This document shows positions 26,503 through 32,528 of a stretch of DNA of 50,458 nucleotides, in pieces (position 1 is the stretch's first letter; every line of letters starts with the position of its first letter). The DNA lies in NCBI GenBank assembly GCA_018814355.1, contig JAHIZT010000082.1, forward strand, positions 1-50,458, given 5' to 3'. This stretch comes from Candidatus Thermoplasmatota archaeon (GTDB lineage Archaea; Thermoplasmatota; Thermoplasmata; UBA10834). Position numbers and translations under genes: made by a program. The notes under the pieces were generated by a model. It was not told where the DNA came from. It was given only the letters and a program-made list of their open reading frames with translations, and did not search any database.

Positions 26503-29385
26503 TCATTCCAAGTACACTGCCGGCCGGCCAGGTTTCGCGAACCTCGCCTTCCCCTTCGGGTCTACCCTAGCGGGATCGTCCGCGGAGAACACTTCGACCC
26601 GACACGAGAACTCCGTCTCCAAGAACGATTTCGCATTGCTTAGAACAGCGAGCTCGTCCACAACCACGGACATGAGGTTTCTGCCATCGGCAGATGTCTT
26701 TGTCAGCTCAGCCACCACTTCTTTCGCGAATGCTGGTATCTCCTTCTTCGCGTCAGGCCCCTGCGCCTTCGCCATGCTGGTCTTTATGAGCGACGATATG
26801 TCCGACTTACCTCTGGGCTGAGAAAGCGCCGCCGCCAGCAATTCCTGCTTCCAGATCGGAGCCGTCATCACGATGATACGCTTCGGCTTGATCTCGGTCA
26901 CCTTCAAGATCTCGGCAACGTCCGACAACAGGGACTCGAGCAGCCGCTCCTTGGCCTCCTCAATCGCAGACGCCGCCCCTATGACAGGCGATCCGAGCTG
27001 CACCTGAGAAACGAACGGCTTCTTTCCGAGCGCTTGCCACATCTCCTCTGCGACATGCGGAGTGACAGGAGCCATCAGCGGTACCCATTTCTCGAGGGCG
27101 CCCAGAATCACGGCCCTGTTCTTTCCGCCCCTCCTCAGGTACCATCTGAAATCCTGCGGCATCTCGAAGTAAACGTCGTTCGAATATGACCTAAGGTCAT
27201 AGTCCTCCATGTACCCATGGATTCTCGCCAGCCTGGCCTCCATCCTTGCAAGGAGCCAAGCATCGATATCAGTTGGTTCGCCTTCATTGACGGACATGAG
27301 CTCCTGCGACATCTTCCAGAGACGTTCGAGCCGGTCCCTGTATCCCTCAACCTTCTCATCCTCCCAAGCGACGTCGACGTACAGGGAGGCGATGTGGGCG
27401 TAGAACAACCTCATGGCGTCGACGCCGAACCTCTCGGCTGCATCGGGTATCGGCTGCGCTCCCCCCTTTGACTTGGATATCTTGCCGCCGGTTGCGGTGA
27501 TGTACCAGTTCACCAGTATGCCCCGGGGCCAATGCTGAGGGCGCAGGACAGCAACATGGTTCATCAAGAACACGGGGAAGTGCACGGTCATATGCTCCTT
27601 TCCTCCGAGGTTGATGTCCAGCGGATACCAGTATTCGAACTCCGCTCTGATCGACTCTAGGACTTGTCTGGAGAAACCTGATTTCTCTGAGACAGAGTTG
27701 GCGTCACCCTTGCCCAGCAGAACATAGTCGAAGAACGCTTCGTCCATGCCATCAGGCTTGATCAGGCCCTCGTTCGCATATCTAGATATCACATAGTACA
27801 CAGGATATAGCGTGCTGTCCGCGATTGCCTCGACGATCCACTTCTGATCGAAAGGAAATCTGGTGCCGAGCCAGTTCCCCATGCGCACGCATGCCCGCTC
27901 CCGATACCATTCCAGGACGCCCTGTATGTTCTCGTAGTATTCTTTGGGAAGGATCTTCATAGCCCGCGCGTGCTCTTTTGAACGTGCTGTGAGCGCTGGA
28001 TTGGAGTAGTCAATGAACCACTGGTCGGGGATCTTCTTGATGAATACCTTCTCTCCGCACCTGCACAGGACCTCCTCTGACAGGTCGTGGAAGAGGTCTG
28101 CCTGGCCTTTTGCGAGCATCTCCTGACGCATGACGTCCTTGGCTCGCTCGACCGGCTGGCCTGCGAACTCGCCGCAGGACTTGTTCATGACTCCTTTGTG
28201 GAAGCCGCTCTTGTAGACCTCCTTCGTCGCCTCGTCGAGCTTCGGGTCCGTCAGTGAGTCGATGCCCATCCTCTTGGTGATCTCGACGGCCGGCAGAGGA
28301 CCCCAGCCAGGAGTATCTATGATGGGTGTCGGTCTGGCATGCTCCATCATCTCGTCCGTTATTCCGTATCGAGATCGCGTGGCGTTGTCCCTCGAGAGTT
28401 CTACGAGGCCGATCCAGTCGACTGGGGCATCGGAGGGCACGCTCATGACAAGCCCTGACCCCACGTTGGGGTCGCACAGGGTGGATGGGAATATGGGGAT
28501 CATCTTCCCGGTGTACGGCGCCCTGCACCGCTTGCCCATCAACGACGCGCCATTGGCAGAGCCTATGATCTCGACTCTGTCCCTCTGGTACCCGAGCTTC
28601 TCAGCCGCCTGCCTGCTTACGACCCAGATCTCTCCGTCCACCCGTGCGTCTACGTATTCTACCTCAGGGTTGACCCAGAAGTTCGTAAGGCCGAATACCG
28701 TCTCGGGCCTCAGGGTTGCGGCCACCAGCTTCCGGCCGTCCTCGAAGTCGAACTTCAGCATAGAGTACTCAAGAACCTCTGCGTTCCCGCCCTTCGAGAT
28801 GTCGGTCTCGGAGGCGTCTATGGCCACCGGACCGTGCTCGATGCACGCGGCCGCGAAGTACGGCTTCTGTATGAGCAGGCCTTCGGCCATCAGTTTGCGC
28901 ATCTGCCACTCGATGAACTTGGAGTAGTCAGGGTAAATCGTGCAAGTGAACCTGCGCCAGTCGGACATGAATCCGAAACGCTTCCAATAATCATTCACGT
29001 AGACGCCGTTGAAGAATCTGACAACCTCTTGCGGATCAGCCAGCAATCTGATCTTGAGTTCTGAGCAACCGTTCGCGCTGAGCATCTCGATCGTCGCCGG
29101 ATCCCGCCTCTCGACCTTCTTCGCGAAGCTGATGGCTCCGTTGCCAGTCGCGTGCGTTCCCATCGGGAAGAGGACGGAGTGCCCGGTCATCATCTTGTAC
29201 CGCACGATCGCATCGGAGAAGGTGTACCCGCGCATGTGGCCGACGTGCAGGTATCCGGTCACACCTGGGTATGCGAATATCATGAAGAACTTCTTCTTGC
29301 TGGGGTCAGGGGTGGACTCGTTTATCTTGGCATCGTACCACGCCTTTCGCCATTTGGCCTCTATGTCGGAGAAGTTGAGAGCCAT
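26503..29385 (-). CDS. leuS: Leucyl-tRNA synthetase, archaeal type
   Basis: 960 aa, a class I synthetase charging tRNA-Leu. Seen: the HIGH-type motif HVGH at 47-50 in GYLHVGHMRGYTFSD, an editing (CP1) domain with TLRPETVFGLTN and the SVPSDAPVDW region, and the KMSKS-type motif KISKSKGGAQP. Archaeal features include the C-terminal region after the anticodon-binding domain. Start: ATG 29385 (MALNFSDIEAKWRKAW); the longer frame to 29451 lies above the TATA candidate CTTTTATTAG at 29421-29430. The tRNA-Leu at 36.1 kb is a natural substrate. Confidence 0.97.
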   Translation of the reverse strand: MALNFSDIEAKWRKAWYDAKINESTPDPSKKKFFMIFAYPGVTGYLHVGHMRGYTFSDAIVRYKMMTGHSVLFPMGTHATGNGAISFAKKVERRDPATIEMLSANGCSELKIRLLADPQEVVRFFNGVYVNDYWKRFGFMSDWRRFTCTIYPDYSKFIEWQMRKLMAEGLLIQKPYFAAACIEHGPVAIDASETDISKGGNAEVLEYSMLKFDFEDGRKLVAATLRPETVFGLTNFWVNPEVEYVDARVDGEIWVVSRQAAEKLGYQRDRVEIIGSANGASLMGKRCRAPYTGKMIPIFPSTLCDPNVGSGLVMSVPSDAPVDWIGLVELSRDNATRSRYGITDEMMEHARPTPIIDTPGWGPLPAVEITKRMGIDSLTDPKLDEATKEVYKSGFHKGVMNKSCGEFAGQPVERAKDVMRQEMLAKGQADLFHDLSEEVLCRCGEKVFIKKIPDQWFIDYSNPALTARSKEHARAMKILPKEYYENIQGVLEWYRERACVRMGNWLGTRFPFDQKWIVEAIADSTLYPVYYVISRYANEGLIKPDGMDEAFFDYVLLGKGDANSVSEKSGFSRQVLESIRAEFEYWYPLDINLGGKEHMTVHFPVFLMNHVAVLRPQHWPRGILVNWYITATGGKISKSKGGAQPIPDAAERFGVDAMRLFYAHIASLYVDVAWEDEKVEGYRDRLERLWKMSQELMSVNEGEPTDIDAWLLARMEARLARIHGYMEDYDLRSYSNDVYFEMPQDFRWYLRRGGKNRAVILGALEKWVPLMAPVTPHVAEEMWQALGKKPFVSQVQLGSPVIGAASAIEEAKERLLESLLSDVAEILKVTEIKPKRIIVMTAPIWKQELLAAALSQPRGKSDISSLIKTSMAKAQGPDAKKEIPAFAKEVVAELTKTSADGRNLMSVVVDELAVLSNAKSFLETEFSCRVEVFSADDPARVDPKGKARFAKPGRPAVYLE

Positions 29386-29447
29386 CTTGCACAGCCAGCT
29401 ACAACACTGAATACCTGTGACTAATAAAAGGTTTCTCGATGGCAGAC

Positions 29448-29756
29448 TCATCTCACAACGAGGTCTCTGCTCCGCATCACTGAGACCGCCGGACCCACAG
29501 TCGCGATGACTACGCCTGCCAGGCTTGTCATGATGCCGGCGAGGACAAACTTGTCAGCTTCTCCCCCGAAGCGCTCCTTATCGACTGAGAGGGGCACACC
29601 TGATCCGTCGTGCAATCCTCTGACATTCGTCTGAGAGAAAGAAGCGACTGTTACGAGGAAACCGGTAATGAAGAGCGCGATCCCTACTAATACCATCAGA
29701 AAGCGAGCTTTTGGCGCTCTGCTAGCCCCCAACCTGATCTTGCGATCTGCTGCCAT
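29448..29756 (-). CDS. Small two-helix membrane protein
   Basis: 102 aa starting MAADRKIRLGASRAPKARF, a basic N-terminus followed by helix 1 (LMVLVGIALFITGFLVTVASF), an outer or periplasm-side loop of about 30 residues (VPLSVDKERFGGEADKF), and helix 2 (LAGIMTSLAGVVIATVGPAV). The longer frame to 29912 adds a non-conserved-looking stretch. No family recognised. It lies 62 bases upstream of leuS on the same strand, but leuS has its own promoter. Confidence 0.65.
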   Translation of the reverse strand: MAADRKIRLGASRAPKARFLMVLVGIALFITGFLVTVASFSQTNVRGLHDGSGVPLSVDKERFGGEADKFVLAGIMTSLAGVVIATVGPAVSVMRSRDLVVR

Positions 29757-29932
29757 AACTTGAGGATGCCCCAGCTGAAGGATGCAGGAGAGCGCACCCT
29801 TGGATAAACCTTCCTGCACGGATTCGGGCGTGTGCGCGATAGCCCTAGAACATCGCCCAGAGCCCCTTGACGGGCATATTCGACGACCGAGCCAGTATAG
29901 CGAGTATGACAATTGCCGACGAAATGAGACAT

Positions 29933-29952
29933 TTTACATATTAATATATACC
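29933..29952 (+). promoter_or_regulatory. TATA box of the cdrS-ftsZ-like operon
   Basis: An AT-rich element containing ACATATTAATATATA. Transcription is predicted to start near 29972, leaving a leader of about 30 nt before the ATG at 30005. Confidence 0.55.
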
Positions 29953-30004
29953 TTCGGCTGACATATGTTCCTTTTGCGTCAACAAATCGGGATGGGATGC
30001 ACAC

Positions 30005-30385
30005 ATGTCCGACCCTTTGGAGAGCGAACGGATAACAATTCGGCTCGATGCCGAGGACCTCAAAATGATCGACGATTTCATCGCCGACAGCAACGAGTTC
30101 TCCAACAGGTCGCAACTGGCCCGTGCAGCCGTTCGCGCGTACATAGAAATGCGCGCGGGCGGCTCTGAAGGGACGAACAGCAAGCCGAACGAGATCGTGG
30201 TGGTTCTTCCGTCGCTTGTGCTTGACACAATCAAGCAGCTCGTGGCGGAAGGAGTGTACAGCTCGATTTCAGAGGCTGTAGCCGATTCGGCGCGTCATGA
30301 GTTCCTACACGAGGAGCACGTGGAAGGGCTCAAGAAGGACGCGAACAAGCAGGGAACCGGCTTTAAGCTCGTCCCCGGAGCATAG
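30005..30385 (+). CDS. Ribbon-helix-helix regulator, CdrS-like
   Basis: 126 aa with two ribbon-helix-helix units. Unit 1: ERITIRLDAEDLKMIDDFIADSNEFSNRSQLARAAVRAYI (about 8-48). Unit 2: NEIVVVLPSLVLDTIKQLVAEGVYSSISEAVADSARHEFL (about 61-100). The C-terminal 26 residues are basic. It lies 91 bases upstream of the ftsZ-like gene, same strand. In haloarchaea a short RHH protein, CdrS, is co-transcribed with ftsZ2 and controls cell-division genes; the same neighbourhood here supports that role by context, not by direct evidence. Symbol left blank because this one is longer than haloarchaeal CdrS. Confidence 0.85.
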   Translation: MSDPLESERITIRLDAEDLKMIDDFIADSNEFSNRSQLARAAVRAYIEMRAGGSEGTNSKPNEIVVVLPSLVLDTIKQLVAEGVYSSISEAVADSARHEFLHEEHVEGLKKDANKQGTGFKLVPGA

Positions 30386-30476: not shown

Positions 30477-31262
30477 ATGACGACGGAAAGGAGCAGGACG
30501 GAAGAGATAATCAATGCGATAGGGACCAGCCTCGGTGAGCCGACAGTCGCAGTAGTCGGCTGCGGAGGAGCTGGTTCGAACATCGTCCACGGGATCTACT
30601 GGAAGTCCAACCGTGTTGAGACCGTGGCTGTGAACACTGACGAGGAACACCTCAGAAAGGTTGACGCCCACAAGAAGATCCTGATCGGGAAGGATGTCTC
30701 CTTCGGACGGGACGCGGGCGGGTTTCCCGAGATAGGGGAGCACTGCGCCGACAAGGCTAGGAATGTCATCAAAGAGGCGATCAAGGGATACGACATCGTC
30801 TTCGTCGTCGCGGGCATGGGTGGCGGAACGGGCACAGGCGTTGCCCCAGTCGTCGCGAGCGTCGCACGCGAGATGAACGCAATCACATTCGCGCTGCCAA
30901 TACTACCATTCGACATCGAGGGCGAGGCACGGAGAAAGACGGCAAATGAAGGGGTCGCCAAGCTGAAGGACCAGGCGAACTTCACCATCGTCCTAGACAA
31001 CAACAAGCTCATGAGCATCGGCTCGGAACTCCCGATGGCCGAGGCGCTCAAGGTAGTTGATAGGAGCGTATTGAGAATCGTGGACTCGGTGTGCCACCAG
31101 ACGAGTTCGTACGTCAGCAGCATGATGGAGGACATCATGGGCTACGGCGAAGAACTGGCTGAGCCAGCACCTGAGCCGCCGGCGGAGATGAGGGAGACCC
31201 AGTTGGTGCACGCCGACCTGGACCCGATGTTCAGTGGGTTTGGCCCGAGCATGTTCGGGTGA
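30477..31262 (+). CDS. FtsZ-like GTPase, truncated before the T7 loop
   Basis: 261 aa, against about 350-400 for FtsZ. Seen: VGCGGAGSN at 27-35 (G-loop 1), NTDEEHL at 53-59, and the tubulin signature GMGGGTGTG at 113-121, then LPFDIEGEARRKTANEG, TIVLDNNKLMSIG, and helix 7 AEALKVVDRSVLRIVDSV. The sequence then departs: where FtsZ has the T7 loop with its catalytic acidic residues (PSLVNLDYADVK-type), this protein reads HQTSSYVSSMMEDIMGYG. The C-terminal tubulin domain is absent. A Pro/Glu-rich linker and a short tail (DLDPMFSGFGPSMFG) follow. GGAGG precedes the ATG by 8 bases. No sign of frameshift. It should bind GTP but may not complete a neighbour's active site; its job is unknown. Confidence 0.9.
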   Translation: MTTERSRTEEIINAIGTSLGEPTVAVVGCGGAGSNIVHGIYWKSNRVETVAVNTDEEHLRKVDAHKKILIGKDVSFGRDAGGFPEIGEHCADKARNVIKEAIKGYDIVFVVAGMGGGTGTGVAPVVASVAREMNAITFALPILPFDIEGEARRKTANEGVAKLKDQANFTIVLDNNKLMSIGSELPMAEALKVVDRSVLRIVDSVCHQTSSYVSSMMEDIMGYGEELAEPAPEPPAEMRETQLVHADLDPMFSGFGPSMFG

Positions 31263-31427: not shown

Positions 31428-32528
31428 GTGAGAGTAGGCTTCGTCGTGAATCCGATAGCCGGCATGGGAGGCTCTGTCGGACTGAAGGGCACCGATGGGG
31501 ATGACATCCTCAGGGAGGCGGAGAAGAGAGGCGCAAAGAGGCTCTCTCCGGAGAGGGCGAAGAAGGCGCTCGCAGGCTTTAGCTCCAGGAAGGTACACGT
31601 CGAGTTCTTGACCTGTTCTGGAGACATGGGCAAGTCCGAGCTCGATTCAGTAGGCATACCAGCGGAGGTCGTGTTCGAGCCGGGCGCGGTGACAACTCGT
31701 CAAGATACGGCCAGAGCCGTCAGGGAGTTTGTCAAACGCGATGTGGATCTCATTCTGTTCGCAGGGGGCGACGGCACTGCTAGAGACATTCTCGAGATTG
31801 CCGGTCAGAAGGTGCCCATCGTCGGCATACCGACAGGGGTGAAGATGCATTCGGCAGTGTTCGCGTACACGCCCGAGGATGTGGTCGACCTTGTGCGGAC
31901 TTACGAGGACAGACGGTCGACCAAGGATGCAGATGTGATGGATGTCGACGAGGAGAGCTTCAGAGCTGGAAGGCTGAGAGCGAAGCTGTTCGGCGTCGCC
32001 AGAGTGCCCGATGACCCTGTCCACATGCAATCAGGCAAGGCTGTCTACCATTCAGGGAGCGCAGAGGACGAGCTCGTTGAGCTCGGTCAGTACGTTGCGG
32101 AGACGATGGAGAAAGGGGTGATGTACGTCCTGGGTCCAGGAAGCACGACCGAGGCGGTCACCAAACACCTCGGTCTGAAGAAGACCCTTCTAGGTGTTGA
32201 TGTCGTTCTCGACTTCAAGATGATCCTACGCGATGCCTCGGAGATGGACCTCCTTGAACTCTTGGCGGACCAAAGAGCTGCGAAGATACTGGTCTCACCC
32301 ATCGGCTCTCAGGGATTGTTCTTTGGACGTGGGAACCAACAGCTATCCCCCAGCGTGATCAGAGCGGTCGGGCGAGACAATGTGACCATCATCTCCACAC
32401 CATCTAAGTTGAAGGGGACCCCGGTTCTGAGATCGGATACAGGGGATTCTGAGCTCGACTTGGAGTTCAAGGGGCGGATCAAGGTCATCACTGGCTACAA
32501 ACGCAGGAAGCTGGTGACTGTGGAATAG
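31428..32528 (+). CDS. ATP-NAD-kinase-family protein
   Basis: 366 aa of the NAD kinase / diacylglycerol kinase superfamily (COG3199 group). Seen: the opening RVGFVVNPIAGMGG, the kinase motif GGDGTARD at 113-120, VPIVGIPTGVKMHSAVFA, then a C-terminal half with YVLGPGSTTEAVTKHLG and KILVSPIGSQGLFFGRGNQQ. The GGDGT and NPxAG motifs bind ATP in this superfamily. Whether it phosphorylates NAD(P) or another acceptor is not shown by sequence. Start GTG 31428, giving the family opening exactly. Confidence 0.88.
   Translation: MRVGFVVNPIAGMGGSVGLKGTDGDDILREAEKRGAKRLSPERAKKALAGFSSRKVHVEFLTCSGDMGKSELDSVGIPAEVVFEPGAVTTRQDTARAVREFVKRDVDLILFAGGDGTARDILEIAGQKVPIVGIPTGVKMHSAVFAYTPEDVVDLVRTYEDRRSTKDADVMDVDEESFRAGRLRAKLFGVARVPDDPVHMQSGKAVYHSGSAEDELVELGQYVAETMEKGVMYVLGPGSTTEAVTKHLGLKKTLLGVDVVLDFKMILRDASEMDLLELLADQRAAKILVSPIGSQGLFFGRGNQQLSPSVIRAVGRDNVTIISTPSKLKGTPVLRSDTGDSELDLEFKGRIKVITGYKRRKLVTVE

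Follow-up and report, generated by a model that had tools for sequence, protein, structure and literature searches.

A short, conserved FtsZ homolog without T7 loop or C-terminal domain in the archaeal class Thermoplasmata

Analysis of a 50,458-nucleotide contig of a Candidatus Thermoplasmatota archaeon (JAHIZT010000082.1, referred to in its full length as the window) revealed a gene for a short FtsZ, ftsZS (positions 30477-31262, forward strand, 261 aa). We confirmed that its product consists of the N-terminal GTPase domain and helix H7 of FtsZ, and lacks the T7 loop and the C-terminal domain. FtsZS represents a well-supported, real and ancient family of single origin, and its features suggest that it works without building normal filaments. 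We propose that it acts as a polymer-independent, GTP-dependent switch or adaptor in the control of cell division, a reading to which, judging from sequence, we give a probability of about 0.5.

The ftsZS ORF starts with ATG, immediately preceded by a GGAGG Shine-Dalgarno-like sequence. The Pfam Tubulin domain (PF00091) matches residues 24-181 with 139.4 bits, and the NCBIfam FtsZ model TIGR00065 matches residues 21-204 only, with 202.2 bits, below its equivalog cut-off of 295.2. The GTPase domain (30543-31031, forward strand), defined by PF00091 and modeled confidently by AlphaFold2, contains the T1 (GCGGAGSN), T2 (NTD), T4 (GMGGGTGTG), T5 (PFDIEGE) and T6 (LDNNKL) motifs, so the complete GTP-binding half described in the original prediction is present; the G-box and NTD motifs diagnostic of tubulin/FtsZ GTPase domains are invariant. 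Neither the T7 synergy loop (N-[LIV]-D-[FY]-x-D) nor the FtsZ_C domain (PF12327) was found in the 30477-31262 ORF, which bears out the claim that the protein ends before T7. The best PDB matches were all FtsZ, with alignments ending at about residues 190-212. PDB entries 4b45 and 4b46, which we take to be CetZ-type, gave E-values of 8.5e-12 and 1.4e-7 against 2e-42 for FtsZ, and FtsZS was not assigned to CetZ, a family not included in our tree.

The sequence at the position of the T7 loop had been called unrelated. The AlphaFold2 model, computed for the monomer only, corrects this: it shows the FtsZ fold with residues 187-227 (31035-31157, forward strand; helical by DSSP) as one unbroken H7 helix of conserved amphipathic pattern, the extension of which, from residue 205, stands in place of the T7 loop and the C-terminal domain. 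Its hydrophobic stripe (residues 205, 209, 212, 216, 220 and 223) is kept across 60 family members, which fits a surface for docking or for a coiled coil. In a Foldseek search with the model, the best 50 matches were FtsZ only, and S. aureus FtsZ structures superposed at ~1.1 Å across 185 residues. The helix is followed by a Pro/Glu-rich linker (residues 228-243; 31158-31205, forward strand), disordered with pLDDT < 50, and by a conserved C-terminal tail, VHADLDPMFSGFGPSMFG (residues 244-261; 31206-31259, forward strand), itself disordered in the monomer model; both had been anticipated. A member from family f6, a family of methanogens discussed below, has the same architecture, with H7 at residues 177-203.

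Within the genus, pN/pS was lowest in the GTPase domain (0.19), followed by the last 18 residues (0.25) and by H7 with its extension (0.30), and highest in the linker (0.55). The low value for the tail indicates purifying selection, and the tail is therefore functional. Across 55 short forms, f6 members among them, the residues of T1, T2, T4, T5 and T6 that contact the nucleotide show little or no variation. In S. aureus FtsZ, R67 and G72 of the T3 loop contact the next subunit or help to hold the catalytic water (PMC8936486). The equivalent positions are unconserved in short forms, both within and outside f6, even where a full-length FtsZ is encoded beside them. The equivalent of S. aureus R143, which aids catalysis, is retained in 48 of the 55. 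The archaeal SepF-binding GID motif was absent from all 75 short forms searched; as a control, a relaxed version of the motif was found in 23 of 31 FtsZ1 sequences, and the control was weak for FtsZ2 (1-2 of 14).

The short FtsZs of one f6 genus (L175, L108, L107, L110 and L096) share a conserved hydrophobic C-terminal peptide, SPI[CF]AF[IT][NS]A, with related endings of the form [FYL]PI..L.S[AT]; the tail in the window's family, FGPSMFG, is different. This peptide is likely a partner-binding motif.

To determine the distribution of the short form, profile searches covered 300 genomes from the class and 390 from the phylum. In the window's family (f1), an ortholog with 62-80% identity is present in 17 of 18 other genomes, and the single genome without one is 55% complete. 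Sixteen of the 17 orthologs are intact through the tail, one of these beginning at a contig edge; the remaining one, in G006, ends abnormally, apparently through an assembly fault. Among the matches listed, short open frames occur in at least 15 families of the class (f1, f2, f6, f8, f12, f13, f15, f16, f20, f22, f23, f29, f30, f32 and f33), some of them in complete single-contig genomes, and none was confirmed outside the class. Two candidates from outside the class were rejected, one (G376) being a gene interrupted by the contig end and the other (G486) a frameshifted, T7-bearing FtsZ2. A frameshift or assembly error near 31.1 kb, or the lack of any relative sharing the short form, would have undermined the original prediction. 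The relatives described above dispose of the latter, and the former is ruled out by the 16 intact family orthologs together with the gap between ftsZS and the gene that follows: this gap is 165 bp, too small for an FtsZ C-terminal domain of roughly 150 aa, so that no frameshift could restore the missing half.

Phylogenetic trees were built from the GTPase domain and the beginning of H7 only, with the C-terminal columns excluded. In the first tree, 55 short forms fell on one side of a single branch (SH-aLRT 97). In a more careful tree, 39 short forms were united in one clade with support of 100/98, on the side of FtsZ2; FtsZ1 formed a group of its own (100/99), and the FtsZ2-type sequences lay between the two. 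Given the great age of the FtsZ1/FtsZ2 duplication (PMC8178401), the root falls outside the short clade. Repeated independent C-terminal losses were ruled out, since the short forms make up one clade even without the C-terminal columns, and a recent truncation of the family's own FtsZ2 was rejected (p-AU 0.0025 for grouping the f1 short form with it). Every full-length FtsZ1- or FtsZ2-type sequence examined has the T7 motif, and no short form does. A single, ancient origin of FtsZS from FtsZ2 is well supported by the sequences. Probably an RHH-ftsZ2 (cdrS-ftsZ2) operon was duplicated in an ancestor belonging to the class, and one copy then lost its C-terminal half.

The gene context is consistent with such an origin. 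Directly upstream of ftsZS, on the same strand, lies a gene for a 126-aa CdrS-like protein with tandem ribbon-helix-helix (RHH) domains (30005-30385, forward strand; PF17723/PF01402), in agreement with the regulator originally predicted there. The arrangement matches the archaeal cdrS-ftsZ2 operon, in which CdrS regulates division genes (PMC7439475). CdrS itself is a single short RHH, in contrast to the tandem protein of the window, which scored 36.5 bits against the CdrS model NF058555, short of the equivalog cut-off of 100. An RHH gene lies directly 5' of every short ftsZ, and 5' of every full-length FtsZ2-type gene, for which upstream sequence is available; none was found 5' of an FtsZ1-type gene. 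Co-expression of ftsZS with its RHH regulator is part of the reading proposed here. The window also encodes a leucyl-tRNA synthetase-like protein divergently on the 5' side (26503-29451, reverse strand) and an ATP-NAD kinase-like protein on the 3' side (31428-32528, forward strand; PF01513/PF20143). A leuS-like gene occupies the former position, on the opposite strand, at 54 of 71 short-ftsZ loci, including most of those in the f6 methanogens, and a NAD kinase-like gene the latter at 34 of 75.

Upstream of the RHH-ftsZS pair, a TATA-like box, TTAATATATA (29941-29950, forward strand), is strongly conserved in an alignment of 14 family orthologs and is a putative promoter element. TGACA-type repeats around it (at 29907, 29926 and 29959) were also seen in the aligned family orthologs; these conserved TGACAT-type repeats, flanking the box within 29900-29965, form a candidate RHH operator. 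A further conserved element, GGGATGGGATGC (29989-30000, forward strand), lies immediately 5' of the RHH start. It has 4 exact copies in the 2.06 Mb genome (0 for the reversed control), one of them before the RHH-ftsZS operon, one before an smc-like gene, one directly after a small RHH gene and one that is unassigned. In other families it is found 58-160 bp ahead of the short ftsZ start, and in other classes it also precedes FtsZ2-type genes. This element may mark a cell-cycle regulon. No known RNA family was found around the operon.

The original prediction had called for a search for a second, full-length ftsZ in the same genome. The genome encodes six further tubulin-family proteins; T7 is intact in five of them, and the sixth is degenerate. 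Three full-length ftsZ genes are clustered within ~7 kb (G000:C46:20356-27577): a tandem pair of FtsZ1 type, and one of FtsZ2 type that is accompanied by a tandem RHH of its own. Another non-canonical FtsZ, likewise conserved and ~300-330 aa long (G000:C116:27128-27523, or L007; L081, L076 and L078; and a single weak PF00091 match in each genome of a further set), apparently one per genome, keeps the C-terminal domain and is degenerate in T7 and part of the nucleotide site.

Family f6 presents a different situation. The methane-production marker mcrA was found in all 15 f6 genomes tested, and f6 very likely corresponds to Methanomethylophilaceae, which are probably gut-dwelling methane producers. 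The short form is present in 25 of 25 f6 genomes, all at least 92% complete and several in a single contig, which had been selected among genomes with an earlier match or listing. At a stricter cut-off, three additional genomes of the family, all fragmented (G211, G237 and G264), gave no match. No FtsZ_C domain (PF12327) was found in 24 of the 25, ruling out for these a separate gene that supplies the missing C-terminal domain, and the other had one sub-threshold match. Ten near-complete f6 genomes contain no PF00091 or tubulin-family gene besides the short form, and SepF was not detectable in any of these ten. A PF03357 search found no ESCRT-III in f6, with a sensitivity so low that the Sulfolobus control also fell under the cut-off. 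Some f6 genomes contain a second, degenerate and T7-less FtsZ, with an RHH gene just 5' in most cases read, apparently a decaying ftsZ2 operon. Other mcrA-bearing families (f20, f29, f30 and f32) have the short form alongside several full-length FtsZs. Five near-complete genomes of another family, f18 (G051, G067, G112, G123 and G042), gave no match to PF00091, FtsZ_C or SepF, and two of them (G051 and G067) gave none to ESCRT-III either.

The evidence slightly favors the view that canonical FtsZ has disappeared from f6, as has SepF from many of its members, and that the family keeps an FtsZ of the N-terminal domain only, functioning either independently of polymers, as a GTP switch, or through an unknown mode of assembly; the gene in the window would then be the same ortholog in an FtsZ-bearing relative.

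In the switch or adaptor that we propose, the GTPase domain would bind GTP and read nucleotide state, the H7 extension would dock or dimerise, and the tail would bind a partner. Hydrolysis of the bound GTP could be slow at best, or could depend on a T7-like loop contributed by another protein. Canonical FtsZ filaments are not expected because the bottom face is missing, and, as far as the known FtsZ interface allows prediction, FtsZS would form no head-to-tail protofilaments and offer no catalytic loop to a neighbor, as originally suggested. Where full-length FtsZ is present, FtsZS may also touch its filaments, which would not be a universal role. ARC3, an FtsZ-like regulator of plants, was considered as a possible analogue and set aside. 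Loss of T7 and the C-terminal domain, the near-invariant pocket, the amphipathic H7, the conserved tail, the RHH linkage and survival without any other FtsZ all point towards such a switch. Against it, the near-invariant GTP pocket is equally expected of a capper or a heteropolymer subunit, retention of the R143 equivalent hints that GTP hydrolysis could still be of importance within a composite site, and f6 could be a special case with an altered role. The part in division control assigned to the gene at the outset is reasonable, given the RHH linkage and the full-length FtsZs elsewhere in the genome.

It had also been proposed that FtsZS caps, seeds or regulates another FtsZ. A capper or terminator would dock, GTP-bound, through its nucleotide face on the T7/C-terminal face of a full-length FtsZ filament and, having no bottom face of its own, block the next subunit. 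Filaments grow at this T7-exposing end, which is the usual target of the inhibitors MciZ, SulA and MinC (PMC8936486; PMC11938149), and FtsZ mutations in the bottom face are toxic (PMC8936486). FtsZS has kept the nucleotide face and lost the C-terminal polymerisation face, and would present a face with which it could bind at that end, although MciZ, SulA and MinC are unrelated folds acting on FtsZ and FtsZS persists where FtsZ is gone. An FtsZ bearing T7 and the C-terminal domain is available in the window's genome, where capping is possible, but not in most f6 genomes. Capping is attractive as a mechanism, but ftsZS persists in f6 genomes without FtsZ_C, so that capping, seeding or regulating another FtsZ is unlikely to be its conserved function; the lack of conservation at the T3 contact positions, even in FtsZ-bearing lineages, likewise counts against capping, and we regard it as an unlikely explanation for the family.

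Alternatively, FtsZS could self-assemble through another interface, such as the extended H7, and itself be the division cytoskeleton of the methanogen family. Its position as sole FtsZ homolog in f6 genomes without detectable SepF or ESCRT-III and the long amphipathic H7 extension would fit such a polymer. However, the canonical longitudinal contact is impossible, no second conserved interface besides H7 is apparent, and the insensitive ESCRT-III search reduces the weight of that absence. Genomes of genus g32 in f18 also lack FtsZ, indicating that FtsZ-free division exists nearby. We consider a new polymer quite unlikely. Very unlikely, in our view, is a GTP-bound FtsZS that binds the tandem RHH protein and passes nucleotide or FtsZ status to division-gene transcription. 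An RHH linkage that holds without exception in all families, f6 among them, the known regulatory role of CdrS (PMC7439475) and the DNA element common to the operon, the smc-like gene and FtsZ2-type genes agree with it, but the linkage is as strong for polymerising FtsZ2 and alone implies no physical contact. That ftsZS is a decayed duplicate or assembly artefact, as half a protein missing and the aberrant end in G006 might imply, is already refuted by conservation: a single ancient clade, conserved synteny, occurrence in complete single-contig genomes and purifying selection on domain and tail.

Among the archaeal FtsZ relatives already described are FtsZ1 and FtsZ2 (PMC8178401), CetZ, FtsZl1 and FtsZl2 (PMC2875224), and a Culexarchaeia clade with Thermoplasmata members (PMC9723716). 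FtsZ2, the nearest branch in the N-terminal-domain tree, shares the GTPase domain and the upstream RHH gene with FtsZS, but has the T7 loop, the C-terminal domain and full GTPase and polymer function; FtsZS lacks the loop and the domain and presumably the function as well. FtsZ1 (M. jannaschii FtsZ, PDB 1FSZ/1W5A) has a similar fold in its N-terminal half, with ~40% identity; unlike FtsZ1, FtsZS lacks T7, the C-terminal domain and a GID-type SepF-binding tail, and its operon differs. FtsZl1 and FtsZl2 (Makarova and Koonin 2010, PMC2875224) are also non-canonical, and FtsZl1 has no recognisable FtsZ C-terminal domain. FtsZl1, however, is missing T6-H7 and has other C-terminal regions and vWA operons, whereas FtsZS keeps T6 and H7 in an RHH operon, with no vWA neighbor in the gene lists examined around it. 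The Culexarchaeia clade is likewise non-canonical and near FtsZ2, but is not described as lacking the C-terminal domain (PMC9723716). In the open-access literature we found no description of an FtsZ ortholog without C-terminal domain, or of the FtsZ status of Methanomethylophilaceae or Methanomassiliicoccales.

Proteins of the tubulin superfamily are understood as polymers, each subunit completing the GTPase site of its neighbor. Our findings raise the question of how the f6 methanogens, some of them gut species already in culture if f6 has been assigned correctly, divide when no canonical FtsZ, SepF or ESCRT-III can be detected in them. If the proposed reading is true, the GTPase domain of FtsZ can serve a cell without filaments.
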